A DNA stretch of 64,000 bases. Source: Halorubrum salipaludis (GTDB lineage Archaea > Halobacteriota > Halobacteria > Halobacteriales > Haloferacaceae). The position numbers and the translations under genes were made by a program. Location of the stretch: NCBI RefSeq assembly GCF_002286985.1, contig NZ_NSKC01000009.1, positions 1-64,000 of the forward strand, given 5' to 3'. Position 1 is the stretch's first letter; each line of letters begins with the position of its first letter. The notes beneath the pieces were generated by a model. The model was not told the origin of the DNA. It was given only the letters and a program-made list of their open reading frames with translations, and made no database searches. This document shows positions 1 to 64,000 of this stretch, one piece after another.

Positions 1-315
1 AAGGGCAGCTTACGCTCGCTGCGCGCCTCGTTCAGTCGCTGTCGCTCCTTCACTGCGGTGCTTAGCGTCGCCTAAGCTGCCCTTGCGACTGCCCCTTTGA
101 GTCCCACCCAACCGCAGACCGCAGCCTCACGCCTCCCCAGCCTCGTCGGCGGCTCCCGTTAGTCGCCGCCGACTCCCTCGCGCGTGCTCCTCGCGGCCGC
201 CAGTGGCGGCCACTCGGAGGCACGCGCCACCGCGTTGTTTTATAAGTGGCCGTCGCCGTCGCTCTTGGATGTTTAAATACCGGATCGCCGCTATCGATCT
301 GCAAGACCTACTCCC
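1..315 (+). repeat. Structured intergenic repeat, copy A (cut by the window edge)
   Basis: Copy A fills most of the gene-free stretch before position 438. Its first helix is partly outside the window: bases 1-12 pair with 73-84. The conserved linker GCCCCTTTGAGTCCCACCC lies at 91-109 and the core CCTCACGCCTCCCCAGCCTC at 125-144. A second hairpin pairs 145-153 with 165-173. The third has an outer stem 181-187/220-226 and an inner stem 195-201/205-211 with a 3-base loop. GCCACCGC follows, then TTTATAAG at 239-246, TTTAAATAC at 272-280, and a terminal CTGCAAGACC box at 299-308. The 62-304 minus-strand reading frame across it is not a gene. Confidence 0.85.
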
Positions 316-404
316 GATATCAATTACTACAGTACCTGTACTGAGCGATCGGGATACCTAGAGCGATCAAGCGGATCGCAGCGACGCCACGATCACGGCG
401 ACAC

Positions 405-6872: not shown

Positions 6873-7700
6873 ATGGATTTCGAGGCCACGTTCGGCACCG
6901 ACGCGCCCGTGATCGGCATGGTACACCTCCCGCCCCTCCCCGGGGCGCCGAAGGCGCTGGACGACGGCGCGGCCGCGATGCGCGACGCGCTCGACCGGGC
7001 CGCCGCCGACGCCCGCGCGCTCGACCGCGGCGGCGTCGACGGGATCATGGTCGAGAACTTCGGGGACGCCCCCTTCTACCCGGACGACGCGCCGAAACAC
7101 GTCGTCGCGAGCGTCACCCGCGCCGCGACGGCGATCGCGGCCGAGAGCGACCTCCCGCTCGGGATCAACGTCCTCCGCAACGACGCGGAGGCGGCCCTGT
7201 CGGTCGCCGCCGCGGTCGGCGCCGACTACGTCCGGGTGAACGTCCACACCGGCGCCCGGGTCACGGACCAGGGCGTCGTCCAGGGGAAGGCCCACGAGAC
7301 GCTCCGGCTCCGCGACCGCCTCGGCGTCGACGTCGGCGTGTTCGCCGACACAGACGTGAAACACTCCGCGCCGCTCTCGGCGGAGGGGTACACCGCGGAG
7401 TCGTTCGCCGACACCGCCGAGCGCGGGCTCGCCGACGCCGTGATCGCCTCCGGACGCGGCACGGGCGAGGCGATGGACCTCGAAGCGCTCGAGGCGGTCG
7501 TCGCCGACCGCGACGCGCACGGGCTCGACACCCCGGTCCTCGTCGGGAGCGGCGTCCGGGCCGACACGGTCGGCGACGTGCTCTCGCTCGCCGACGGCGC
7601 GATCGTCGGCACCGCGCTCAAGGAGGGCGGCGAGACGACCGCGCCGGTCGACGCCGACCGGGTGGCGGAGGTCGTCGCGCGGGCGGACGAGGCGCGGTGA
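6873..7700 (+). CDS. BtpA/SgcQ family TIM-barrel protein
   Basis: A 275-residue protein of the BtpA family, named for cyanobacterial photosystem I biogenesis but widespread in archaea. Family features: IGMVHLPPLPGAP at the start, GVDGIMVENFGDAPF, GINVLRNDAEAALSVAAAVGADYVRVN, and the phosphate-loop-like LVGSGVRADTV...ADGAIVGTALKEGG. The fold is a phosphate-binding TIM barrel; the reaction in halophiles is not established. The start at 6873 has a CTTATCC box 26-32 bases upstream, consistent with a leaderless message. The last codons and the stop lie in a tandem repeat. Confidence 0.85.
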   Translation: MDFEATFGTDAPVIGMVHLPPLPGAPKALDDGAAAMRDALDRAAADARALDRGGVDGIMVENFGDAPFYPDDAPKHVVASVTRAATAIAAESDLPLGINVLRNDAEAALSVAAAVGADYVRVNVHTGARVTDQGVVQGKAHETLRLRDRLGVDVGVFADTDVKHSAPLSAEGYTAESFADTAERGLADAVIASGRGTGEAMDLEALEAVVADRDAHGLDTPVLVGSGVRADTVGDVLSLADGAIVGTALKEGGETTAPVDADRVAEVVARADEAR

Positions 7701-7766
7701 AGCGCTGGTAATGCGGTGAAGCGCTGGTAATGCGGTGAAGCGCTGGTAATGCGGTGAAGCGCTGGT
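7694..7766. repeat. 19-bp tandem repeat spanning the btpA-like stop codon
   Basis: Three full copies of GCGGTGAAGCGCTGGTAAT at 7694, 7713 and 7732, plus a 16-base partial copy at 7751. The first copy contains the TGA stop of the upstream gene, so the gene end itself has been duplicated downstream. Confidence 0.9.
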
Positions 7767-25572: not shown

Positions 25573-25695
25573 CGACGGACCGGCGAAAACCGGACGTGAA
25601 CGGGGTTCGCTGTCCCCGCTTCGTCGAACCCCCGTTTATCGGCGAGAACGAGATCAAACAGCTGTTCGGCGGAGATCCCGTTTCGATCGACTGTA

Positions 25696-26142
25696 GGAGT
25701 GAGTCTTGCAGATCGGTCGTGGCGAGATGGTATCTAAACAGCCGTGAGCGGAATCGACGACCACTTATAAAAACGGCGCGGTGGCGCGTGCCGCCGAGCG
25801 CCCCTCGGGCGCGAGGTGCACGCGCGAGGGAGTCAGTCGCCGGAGCGAAGCGACGGCGACTGACGAGGCTGGGGAGGGATGAGGTGCTGTGCGGTTGCGG
25901 TGGGGTGGGACTCAAAGGGGCAGTCGCCGGCGGCGGAGCCGCCGGCTGCCAGAGGCGCGAAGCGCCTCGCTGCCGCGAGGACGAAGCACGGCGACGCAAG
26001 CACTGGAAGGAGCGAGCGATGCGAGCGACTGAAGCGCGCAGCGAGCCGCGCGAGTCCTCGCAGCTGGGGCTTTGCAGGCCTTCACCGCAACACCGTCGAT
26101 CACCTATAAACACCCACCAGCACACCACAATTAGACTTATAA
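25696..26142 (-). repeat. Structured intergenic repeat, copy B
   Basis: Copy B occupies most of the gap between dnaG and the ATP-grasp gene and reads on the minus strand. From its 5' end: TTATAAG at 26136-26142, a second box at 26103-26110, CAAAGCCCCAGCTGC at 26060-26075, then perfect hairpins with 3-base loops inside the first helix. The linker GGGTGGGACTCAAAGGGGC (plus-strand view) is at 25904-25922. Helix 2 is 25832-25842/25854-25864 (11 bp). Helix 3 is 25785-25791/25818-25824 with inner stem 25798-25803/25807-25812. The terminal box, CTGCAAGACTCACTCC on its own strand, lies at 25696-25711. The bases from 25573 to 25695 hold nothing I can name. Confidence 0.85.
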
Positions 26143-26184
26143 ACAACCGGCCCACCGCAATGATTCACGTACTCCCGCCGTGGC

Positions 26185-27495
26185 TTACGGTCCGAGGTAC
26201 CCCCACGCCTGCAGTCGATCGCCGTCACCGTTGATCCAGCGCTCGCCGATGTCGTCGCGGTAGTACATGTTCGGCATCACGATCTCGTCAATCCGGTCGT
26301 ACGCCTGCTCGCGCGCGGCTCCCATCGTCTCGCCCTTCCCGGTCACGACGATGGGCATACCGTTGTCGCCCGCGACACGCCACTGCCCGTCGACGCGCTT
26401 CGCGTCCTCCAGGTGGATCCCCTCGCGGCGCTCCGTCTCGAACACCACGGCCGCGTTCCGGGAGTTCTCGTCGTACGTCTTGTCGTCGTCGAACGGGAAC
26501 GGCGGGAGGACGACCCGAACCGCGATCTGGTAGCCGTTGTGGACCTCTAGTTCGGGGTCGTTTCCGTGCGCGAGATCGGAGAAGAACTCGCCGGTGGACG
26601 ACTCGATCGACTCCTCCTGTAAGGCGATCGTCGGGTAGCCGAACCGCGGCGTGAACTCCAGCGGGTAGATCCCCGTCTCGTTGACGATGCAGTTGATGTC
26701 GATGCTCCCGACGTACCCCTCGTCGGCGAGCCAGCCTTCGAGCTTGCCGAACGTCTCCTCGAACAGCTTGTTCTGCCCGGCCCAGAACATCGACGTGCCC
26801 ATCTCACCGGTCGACGGGCCGATGTTGCCCGGGAACAGCTTCTTGTGCTCGAAGTTGAAGTTGACCTGATCGATGAACTCCTCGCCGTTGAAGAACCCGC
26901 AGATGGCGACCTCGACGCCCTCGACCTTCCGCTGGAGCTGGAACCCCTTCATGCGGTGGCCCCACGCCTTCTTGTACGCCTTCAGCACGTCGACCACGTC
27001 GCTGCCGTCGTCCTCGTTGCCGACGTAGAGGAGCCGTTTGACGTTCTGCACCTCGCCGAGCGGCTTGATCACGTACGGCGCGGGATGCTGCTGGACGTGC
27101 TGGATCCCGGCGTCGAAGTCGTCGAAGACGTGGTGTTCGACGGTGTTGACGCCGTGCTCCTCAAGGACTTCCATCGCGTAGCCGCGGTCCTCCTCGAGTC
27201 GGTCGGTGTTCGGCGTGCCGCCGACGACGGCCTTCCCCCGCTCGCGGAGCTCCCGTGCGAGCTCTCCAGTGCCGACGTCGGAACCGACCCAGATGTCGTC
27301 GAAGACGATCACGTCGGCCCACTCCACCTCCGCGCGCCAGTCGTCCGTCTTGGGGACGAACCCGTCGCCGATCTCCCGGTCGCTTTCGGCCTCGATGTAG
27401 TACTTCACGTCGTGGCCCTCGCGGTGGACCTGCCACGCGAGGTCGGTGATCAGCGCGGCGTCCGCGGAGACGAACAGGAACCGTTCGGTGTCCAT
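26185..27495 (-). CDS. PurD-like ATP-grasp ligase (phosphoribosylamine-glycine ligase family)
   Basis: A 436-residue ATP-grasp protein. The preATP-grasp region starts RFLFVSADAALITDLAWQVHREGHDVKYYI and lacks the GGGGREHA motif of classical PurD. The ATP-grasp core is present (YVIKPLGEVQNVKRLLYVG, GFQLQRKVEGVEVAICGFF, GYVGSIDINCIVNETGIYPLEFTPRFGYPTI with metal-binding Glu/Asn). Similar haloarchaeal proteins are annotated as PurD-like, but the missing first motif and long C-terminal region suggest a different carboxylate-amine ligation. It is a lone gene, with no purine genes adjacent. Confidence 0.75.
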   Translation of the reverse strand: MDTERFLFVSADAALITDLAWQVHREGHDVKYYIEAESDREIGDGFVPKTDDWRAEVEWADVIVFDDIWVGSDVGTGELARELRERGKAVVGGTPNTDRLEEDRGYAMEVLEEHGVNTVEHHVFDDFDAGIQHVQQHPAPYVIKPLGEVQNVKRLLYVGNEDDGSDVVDVLKAYKKAWGHRMKGFQLQRKVEGVEVAICGFFNGEEFIDQVNFNFEHKKLFPGNIGPSTGEMGTSMFWAGQNKLFEETFGKLEGWLADEGYVGSIDINCIVNETGIYPLEFTPRFGYPTIALQEESIESSTGEFFSDLAHGNDPELEVHNGYQIAVRVVLPPFPFDDDKTYDENSRNAAVVFETERREGIHLEDAKRVDGQWRVAGDNGMPIVVTGKGETMGAAREQAYDRIDEIVMPNMYYRDDIGERWINGDGDRLQAWGYLGP

Positions 27496-34541: not shown

Positions 34542-34883
34542 TTATAAGCAGTTACCGGCAGATCGGCGGTGAACAACGCCAAATTTCCGACGGATCGCTT
34601 ATAAATAGCTGACAGTGGATCGACAGTGAACACGTCCAAAGCCCCAGCCGCTCGGTTATAAGTGGCTGACAGTGGATCGACAGTGAGCACGTCCAAAGCC
34701 CCAGCCGCTCGCTTATAAATGGCTGACAGTGGATCGACAGTGAACACGTCCAAAGCCCCAGCCGCTCGGTTATAAGTGGCTGACAGCGGATCGACAGTGA
34801 ACACGTCCAAAGCCCCAGCCGCTCGCTTATAAATAGCTGACAGTGGATCGACAGTGAACACGTCCAAAGCCCCAGCCGCGAGG
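34542..34883 (+). repeat. Six tandem 57-bp TTATAA units
   Basis: Units start at 34542, 34599, 34656, 34713, 34770 and 34827, each exactly 57 bp. The first is diverged; the next five are near-identical. Each opens with TTATAARTRGC and, 38 bases after its first base, carries CAAAGCCCCAGCCGC, the 5' strand of helix 1 of the structured element. TTATAA is a strong archaeal TATA form, so each unit looks like a promoter plus the first bases of the RNA. Confidence 0.9.
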
Positions 34884-35130
34884 ACTCGCGCGGCTCGATG
34901 CGCTCCTCGACCGCTCACTCCGTTCGCGGTCTGCGGTGCTTTCGTCGCCGTGCTTCGTCCTCGCGGCTGCCCCTTTGAGTCCCACCCGCCCGCACCGCAA
35001 CCGCACCTCACGCCTCCCCAGCCTCGTCGGCGGCTCCCGTCGGTCGCCGCCGACTCCCTCGCACGCGCTCCTCACGGCCGCCGATGGCGGCCGCTCGGAG
35101 GCGCGCGCCACCGCCCTGATCGCTTATAAA
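34542..35130 (+). repeat. Structured intergenic repeat, copy C (with promoter-like array)
   Basis: The best-preserved copy. After the 57-bp array, helix 1 is exact: CAAAG 34865-34869 pairs with CTTTG 34973-34977. A symmetric internal loop follows (CCCC 34870-34873 against GCCC 34969-34972), then 12 bp (34874-34885 with 34957-34968). The linker GAGTCCCACCC and the core CCTCACGCCTCCCCAGCCTC follow, then helix 2 (GTCGGCGGC/GCCGCCGAC) and helix 3 with a GGCCGCC-GAT-GGCGGCC hairpin, then GCCACCGC and a TTATAA at 35124-35129. It fills the gap between two genes; long frames across it are artefacts. Confidence 0.9.
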
Positions 35131-39683: not shown

Positions 39684-40076
39684 GGCGCGCGCCTTCGAGC
39701 GCCCCCCGGGCGCGAGAAGCGCGTGCGAGGGACGCCGCGAGCGCGGAGCGCGTGCGAGGGACGCCGCGAGCGCGGAGCGCGTGCGAGGGACGCCGCGAGC
39801 GCGGAGCGCGAGCGGCGAGGCTGGGGAGGCGTGAGGATGCGGTGCTGTTGCGGTCGGTGGGACTCAAAGGGGCAGCCGCGAGGCGGCCAGAGGCGACTCA
39901 AGCACCGCAGCGAGTGAGCGAAAGCGAACGAGCGAGGAGCACAGCGAGCGTCTGGCCGCCTCGCGGCTGGGGCTTTGGCGGTGTCCGTGTCGATCGTCGA
40001 TTTATAAGCACTGTACAGCCGAGCGGCTGGGGCTTTGGCGACGTTCGCCGTCGATCCGCTGTTGGGTACTTATAAG
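39684..40076 (-). repeat. Structured intergenic repeat, copy D
   Basis: It fills the gap before the peroxiredoxin gene and reads on the minus strand. Two TTATAA-CAAAGCCCCAG units lead (boxes at 40069-40076 and 40000-40006). Helix 1 has CAAAG/CTTTG (39973-39977 with 39865-39869), a symmetric 4-base internal loop, and 18 perfect base pairs (39951-39968 with 39874-39891). The core GAGGCTGGGGAGGCGTGAGG (plus view) is at 39817-39836. Helix 2 is distorted by a 29-bp tandem expansion. Helix 3 has GCGCCC-CCC-GGGCGC at 39698-39712. The 3' extension seen in copies A, B and E is absent. Confidence 0.85.
39721..39807. repeat. Three tandem 29-bp units inside copy D
   Basis: The 29-bp unit beginning GCGTGCGAGGGACGCCGCGA occurs at 39721, 39750 and 39779, with identical sequence. 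It duplicates the helix 2/helix 3 junction of the structured element. Confidence 0.9.
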
Positions 40077-40153
40077 CAGAGAGCTGGAGCCGGAGCGGAG
40101 TCCACCAGCGGATCGCGGTCAACTACGTATAAGGAATGTCGGCCAGATCCGTC

Positions 40154-49445: not shown

Positions 49446-49580
49446 ATCGCGGGCGGCCGTTCGATCCGTACGCGACTCCGCCGTAACGGTGCGCTCGGAG
49501 AGATTTCGCAGCAGGTCTGTCCTCGAAGGACGCTTCTGATCGATGGCGGGAGTACGTGAATCACTGCGGTGAGTCGGTTG

Positions 49581-50145
49581 TTTATAAGGGGAGGAGCGGT
49601 GTTGCTGTCGGTTGTTTATAAGTGATCGACGGCACACCGGTGAGGATCTGCAAAGCCCCAGTCGCTGTGGGCGGCGCACGCTCGCTGTCGTTCGAAAGGC
49701 GCAAAGCGCCTTTCGTGATGTCGTCAGAACGCTTTGCGTTCTGACTGCTAGCCAGAAATCGGTGATTTCTGGCGATGACGAGAGAGCTACGCTCTCTCGA
49801 ACCACGCGCTTCAGTCGGTCGCTAGCGCTCCCTCCTTCCAGTGCTTCCGTCGCCTGCGCCGCCCACAGCGACTGCCCCTTTGAACCCCACCCACAACCGC
49901 AGGCCGCGGCCTCACGCCTCCCCAGCCTCGTCGCTCGCTGCTCGCGGCTTCGCCGCTCGCCATCGAGGTGCTCGCGCTGCTCGCACCTCGCACCGCTCGC
50001 GACTCCCTCGCGCGTGCTGACTCGCGGCCTATCGGCCGCTCGCAGGCACGCGCCACCGCAACAGCCGTTTATAAGGAATCGTCGCTGCCGCTCACGGCTC
50101 GCTTAAATACTGCTTCGCTGCCGCCAATCCGCAAGACCCACTCCC
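49581..50145 (+). repeat. Structured intergenic repeat, copy E
   Basis: It fills almost all of the 778-base gap before the DUF6498-like gene. Two TTTATAAG boxes (49581-49588, 49615-49622) precede CAAAG 49651-49655. Helix 1 pairs 49660-49678 with 49855-49873 (19 perfect bp), with the CCCC/GCCC internal loop and CAAAG/CTTTG clamp. Inside it are four perfect hairpins: 49693-49715, 49723-49745, 49751-49773 and 49780-49798. The core is at 49912-49930. Helix 2 carries further hairpins. Helix 3 closes near 49999-50055. The 3' extension, TTTATAAG, TTAAATAC then CGCAAGACCCACTCCC, ends at 50145. Confidence 0.9.
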
Positions 50146-50223
50146 GCTGTCACTCGCCCGCAGGTTCCGTATTTGGCGTGACTGCGCGAAATCGGTGTTT
50201 TTTGAGCCTTTCAGCAGCTCCGC

Positions 50224-63939: not shown

Positions 63940-64000
63940 CCGCCCTTAGCTCAGCCTGGTAGAGCAGTCGACTGTAGATCGACTTGTCCCCCGTTCAATT
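63940..64000 (+). tRNA. tRNA-Tyr (GUA), cut by the window end
   Basis: CCGCCCTTAGCTCAG starts the acceptor/D arm; the D loop has CCTGGTAGAGC. The anticodon stem GTCGA/TCGAC encloses the loop CTGTAGA, with anticodon GTA at 63974-63976, reading Tyr codons. The variable region and TPsiC start (GTTCAATT) follow; the 3' acceptor strand lies outside the window. No intron is present. Confidence 0.92.

Follow-up and report, generated by a model that had tools for sequence, protein, structure and literature searches.

Four described classes of element offer points of comparison. The double-hairpin elements found in the mitochondrial DNA of fungi and other organisms, and the hairpin repeats of sponge mitochondrial DNA, are described as small, intergenic, scattered and apparently mobile, with variable stems in which pairing is kept and with nested insertions (PMC2800124, PMC4478555). 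Bacterial REP sequences and BIMEs with their RAYT (Y1) transposases amount to over 100 intergenic palindromes in a genome, occur in paired inverted arrangements and act as a folded single strand. Integron attC sites have short conserved boxes at the base of a hairpin, a variable stem and one folded strand that counts, and MITEs are short non-coding units with terminal inverted repeats (TIRs). The haloarchaeal repeats that we report here share these traits with the four classes, the TIRs being confined to a subset of copies.

The window, the 64,000-nucleotide stretch that was analysed (G000:C27:1-64000), comes from Halorubrum salipaludis and contains five hairpin blocks which are copies of one non-coding haloarchaeal repeat family (Table 1). 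A preliminary description had listed five copies and quoted their linkers, and all of these were found again at their positions; as a total, five is too low, since the 3.5 Mb genome holds about 123. A search of this genome with the pattern CTGCCCCTTTGARTCCCACC, allowing up to two mismatches, gave 59 and 64 matches, and the reversed control pattern gave none. Genome-wide statistics given below for the own genome refer to 101 of the approximately 123 copies.

The core motif, searched as an 18-mer in which either clamp base was permitted, has matches in 275 of 391 haloarchaeal genomes, which represent 65 of the 86 genera, with a maximum of 166 copies, and a 20-mer was matched in 54 of 170 genomes of the taxonomic family of the host. 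Most of 52 Halorubrum species have 3-163 copies and four have none (overall range 0-163); the loci named in a scan of the collection are all from this genus. Beyond the haloarchaeal class, 204 genomes from the rest of the phylum were searched; six gave one match apiece, which is near chance. No exact match was found in viral contigs and just two weak relatives were found on plasmids, in Halomicrobium and Halobaculum, and carriage by viruses or plasmids was rejected on these grounds. The family is apparently previously undescribed: in the openly accessible papers searched, the clamp-linker string does not occur, searches by topic and two genome papers yielded no description, and the short string CAAAGCCCCAG occurs in unrelated papers only.

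Table 1. Positions, strands and parts of the elements and of two other features in the window (H1-H3, helices 1-3)
Feature	Position	Strand	Parts	Remarks
Element A	1..340	+	helix-1 hairpin remainder 1-99; clamp and linker 89-108, 125-145; H2 145-173; H3 180-227; TTATAA box ~240	left end truncated by contig start
Element B	25685..26186	-	left TIR 26161-26186; right TIR 25685-25714; H1 25913-26074 with nested double hairpin	TIR type; convergent genes either side
Element C	34542..35130	+	leader units 34595-34879 (57 bp each, TTATAA...CAAAGCCCCAG); H1 34865-34977; clamp 34967-34986; then H2, H3	tandem-leader type; orthologous site empty in several relatives
Element D	39684..40080	-	H1 39866-39977; clamp 39856-39875; H2 slot with 29-bp tandem array 39718-39814; H3	tandem-leader type
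Element E	49538..50155	+	left TIR 49538-49563; right TIR 50126-50155; H1 49651-49882; clamp 49872-49891; H2, H3	TIR type; gap of 21-23 nt in five relatives
Nested four-hairpin cassette	49688..49804	+	TCGTTCGA...TCGAACCA	inside helix 1 of element E
19-bp tandem repeat	7694-7766		GCGGTGAAGCGCTGGTAAT, 3.8 copies, 100% matches	largely in the gap separating two predicted genes
tRNA gene start	63940-64000			Rfam RF00005; truncated by window end

The anatomy is given on the strand used in the preliminary description. The leader is either TIR-linked with two TTTATAAG boxes or made of one to five tandem units of 57-72 bp ending in CAAAGCCCCAG. It is followed by CAAAG-CCCC-(helix 1)-GCCC-CTTTG-AGTCCCACC, and the linker CCTCACGCCTCCCCAGCCTCG, after which come helix 2, CTCCCTC, helix 3 (GCGCGTGC...GCACGCGC), CACCGC and a further TTTATAAG. 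The constant parts are the base clamp (CAAAG/CTTTG or a covariant version), the internal loop (CCCC/GCCC) and, as linker, GCCCCTTTSAGTCCCACC. Helix 1 folds as a clamp, a symmetric internal loop, a long stem and a weak apical arm; in other genera it may be a bare stem or nearly absent. Helix 2 had been described as having two stem versions, and is better regarded as a slot that holds many unrelated hairpins (126 distinct fillings in 183 copies). Copies B and E have extra nested hairpins within helix 1 and TIRs lying just beyond the ends first assigned to them; in copies C and D tandem leader units take the place of TIRs. We note that tandem arrays of as many as five leader units, each of which ends in (C/G)AAAGCCCCAG, are found in Halorubrum (window 34595-34879) and in genus g15 (L312-L325), and that they run as far as helix 1, where they stop at its left arm. 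In families f2 and f3 (L379, L382, L383, L386 and L387) paired elements often stand back to back, inverted, about 26 nt apart.

Pairing in helix 1 is kept while its sequence changes. Over the first 14 positions in 215 copies the mean number of pairs is 12.4, compared with 9.87 +/- 0.08 for shuffled partners. For 30 diverse copies RNAalifold gave 29 pairs, of which 21 show compensatory (two-sided) changes, a type of count that relatedness inflates; 93.5% of the cells are paired as against 78.2% after shuffling, and the covariation score of 0.406 compares with 0.137 for shuffled partners and with 0.023-0.064 when the partners were slid by 1-3 columns, a control that retains relatedness. None of 500 shuffles equalled any observed pairing measure. 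The clamp occurs as CAAAG/CTTTG in 201 copies, GAAAG/CTTTC in 39 and CGAAG/CTTCG in nine, and is non-matching in 12. The preliminary description had proposed covariation as a check and had taken pairing with changing bases as the mark of selected structure. Selected structure is supported by the covariation, by the joint two-sided changes of the clamp and by strand-specific tandem GA mismatches, which processes that make perfect palindromes would erase. In our view the family is real and large, and the structure under selection is that of the complementary strand.

Asymmetries of mismatches and of loops indicate that the strand which folds is not the one read in the preliminary description but its complement. 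The 2x2 internal mismatches in element hairpins are TC/TC, that is GA/GA on the complement, in 130 of 188 cases, with two of the opposite kind, whereas in flanking DNA the two kinds are near equal (74 versus 88 of 2416). The direction is the same in other genera (10 versus 2; ladder, 21 versus 6). On the complement 66 of 222 triloops are GNA and 29 are TNC; a count that overlaps this one put the two at 63 and 26 of 199, with about 7% each in the flanks. G.T wobbles number 49 on the folded strand versus 15; half of them lie at one position, to which much of the excess is due, and omitting it leaves 24 versus 14 (p 0.14). RNA hairpins are expected to have GNRA and UNCG loops; the 78 tetraloops on the complement comprise 18 GNYA, three GNRA and no UUCG. 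The loops of the folded strand are C(GNA)G and GNYA, which are DNA mini-hairpin types, and GNA and GNNA loops on G-C stems form extraordinarily stable DNA mini-hairpins (PMC4686876). From the loop and mismatch types we infer that the folded strand most likely acts as single-stranded DNA, and put this no more strongly because tandem GA steps and GNA loops are also found in RNA. A G-quadruplex on this strand (runs GGGG, GGG, GGGG and GGGG) is attractive in high potassium but stays speculative, the fourth run being absent in some genera (for example in L373).

The preliminary description had offered an RNA family and a mobilised hairpin element side by side, and it is the first of these that loses ground. 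A family of structured non-coding RNA genes that was amplified as a repeat, with transcripts made from the purine-rich complementary strand, would suit the covarying stems with their conserved purine-rich linkers, the G.T asymmetry and the TTATAA boxes that flank both sides of many Halorubrum copies. RNA-type loops, however, are nearly absent, and Rfam gave no match to the element at the gathering threshold in the window and none at E<=1 for element E. The TTATAA box is self-reverse-complementary, and copies read from other genera, in which helix 1 can also be reduced, showed no TATA-like box next to the core; the box therefore decides neither direction nor transcription and was discarded as promoter evidence. 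An RNA gene also fits poorly with copies that number more than 100, are interchangeable, vary strongly in their stems and show no orientation bias (see below). The RNA reading is possible, weaker than that of a mobile DNA element, and in our judgement unlikely.

The mobile half of the proposal is supported by presence and absence at orthologous sites, by copy numbers of 0-166 and by a clean 58-nt insert. At site C several relatives have a convergent-gene gap of 14-34 nt, and others have one of several hundred nucleotides which holds an element; the five relatives at site E have the short gap listed in Table 1, and at site B a copy is present in some relatives only. The insert is a flush 58-nt double hairpin by which the otherwise near-identical orthologues of G035 and G031 at site C differ; it is present in L344 and absent from its orthologue L345, by gain or loss either way. 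Such nested cassettes consist, as double-hairpin elements do, of two adjacent hairpins forming a unit with variable stems, whereas the whole element does not. The four-hairpin cassette of element E, with fixed linkers and variable stems, has a counterpart of 75% identity with other stems on a Halomicrobium plasmid, and in L359 the interior of helix 1 is inverted. Some of the empty sites could be deletions, as L336 and L342 resemble element remnants and remnants such as L336 show that deletion occurs. A family that varies in presence between species, and in which the fold of one DNA strand persists through changes of sequence, looks like mobile DNA transmitted by shape. We also note that at G004:C13 ~26933 (L400) an element in G004, G027 and G017 alternates with a small ORF (ATGAGCGAACC..., about 50 codons, preceded by an AT-rich stretch of its own) that stands in its place in the own genome, G021, G019 and G016.

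None of the 101 copies overlaps a gene predicted by a simple codon-usage gene caller, so that the random placement, inside genes included, which the preliminary description had held to speak against its proposal is absent. Of 99 gaps with an element 53 are convergent, against 56 among 372 gaps that lack one (odds ratio 6.5, p 4e-14). The strictly intergenic position and this enrichment would be explained if the repeats were cis-acting elements of the host, such as two-way terminators, insulators or protectors of mRNA 3'-ends between convergent genes, and roles of this kind have been proposed for bacterial REP sequences. Orientation relative to co-directional genes is nevertheless unbiased (21 versus 13, p 0.23), orthologous sites are often empty, some species are almost copy-free, and a two-way terminator needs no strand-specific fold. 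Convergent enrichment together with unbiased orientation is better accounted for by insertions tolerated at a distance from promoters than by a function of RNA in cis, and we regard a host cis-acting role as a little less probable even than the RNA genes.

An ordinary MITE of a TIR transposon, with ends near GATCGATAGCGGGAGTGGGTATTGCA and hairpins that are incidental, was considered from the TIR-bearing copies, of which 26 of the 101 have the left TIR, 32 the right, 21 both and 37 at least one. In copies with both, the near-identical inverted ends are 443-643 bp apart, and one TIR copy (L288) has no core, as this reading would allow. Against it, nearly two-thirds of the copies are without a TIR, none was noticed in copies read from other genera, and the strand-specific structure is left unexplained. 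No TIR pair at transposase size (0.75-4.5 kb) was present in the sampled loci, which cover part of the genomes, and that set contained no autonomous TIR copy. Such a MITE is accordingly a doubtful explanation. No target duplication is evident outside the TIRs, the element ends being approximate. In 29 of the 101 own-genome copies (for example at window 49538-50155) the core lies between direct TTTATAAGTGATCG-like repeats, against a background of less than 1%; these repeats are possibly a duplication or an excision scar, and the core-less L288 seems to retain one of them. A Y1/HUH transposase as the mover was also rejected, its presence showing no relation to copy number: genomes G001, G019, G028 and G044 have 53-94 copies by the 18-mer pattern and no PF01797 match.

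If each arm of a palindrome served as the hairpin template for correcting the other, no selection would be needed to keep the pairing. This would suit the many perfect stems and the rapid joint change of arms but is very improbable, because correction would remove mismatches and the GA/GA steps remain, on one strand only and in unrelated hairpins and other genera.

The reading that we favour, and hold at about an even chance, is a haloarchaea-wide, non-autonomous mobile hairpin element that acts as folded single-stranded DNA on which an enzyme works in trans. In such a scheme the non-coding, hairpin-built element would retain its fold while stems and whole hairpins turn over. The complementary strand, single-stranded during replication or transposition, would form loops of the C(GNA)G type and sheared-type GA/GA steps in tandem, and the enzyme would recognize it by shape. 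Smaller double-hairpin cassettes of like style would enter or exit the loops of the element, and copies would survive mainly between convergent genes, where they may do least harm; selection would then be for mobility over host function. A bolder form, which we put forward tentatively and think rather less probable, is archaeal mobile DNA inherited by shape, in which stems of single-stranded DNA with GA ladders and GNA caps would be candidate recognition features for a recombinase or nuclease, and modules would be exchanged or gained as the element spread through most haloarchaeal genera.

Strand-specific GA/GA and GNA signatures offer a test, from sequence only, of which strand folds and of whether it folds as DNA, and the family is a natural system for structure-guided DNA mobility. 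Genome comparisons should mask or annotate the copies. Contigs G000:C27 (at window position 1), G000:C23:89 and G000:C26:6 start inside or right at an element, C27 within a copy and C26 with one at its first bases, and the repeats thus probably break short-read assemblies.

Set against the described systems, to which its likeness was outlined above, the family differs from each. Unlike the mitochondrial hairpin elements, the haloarchaeal family is chromosomal and class-wide, with a much larger composite unit, a fixed clamp and linkers, and strand-specific GA/GA and GNA features. Copy number and placement resemble those of extragenic imperfect palindromes of the REP type, but copy number is independent of Y1 genes, four high-copy genomes gave no match to such a transposase, no conserved tetranucleotide beside the hairpin was recognized and stem sequences are unconserved. 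Compared with integron attC sites the boxes appear to differ, and no gene-cassette array was seen in the sequences. MITEs differ in that TIRs are not general in the haloarchaeal family, no parent transposon was found in the sampled loci, and the internal architecture covaries. Our verdict is that the family behaves like a mobile element in the double-hairpin or REP style, short of membership among REP/RAYT systems or standard MITEs.
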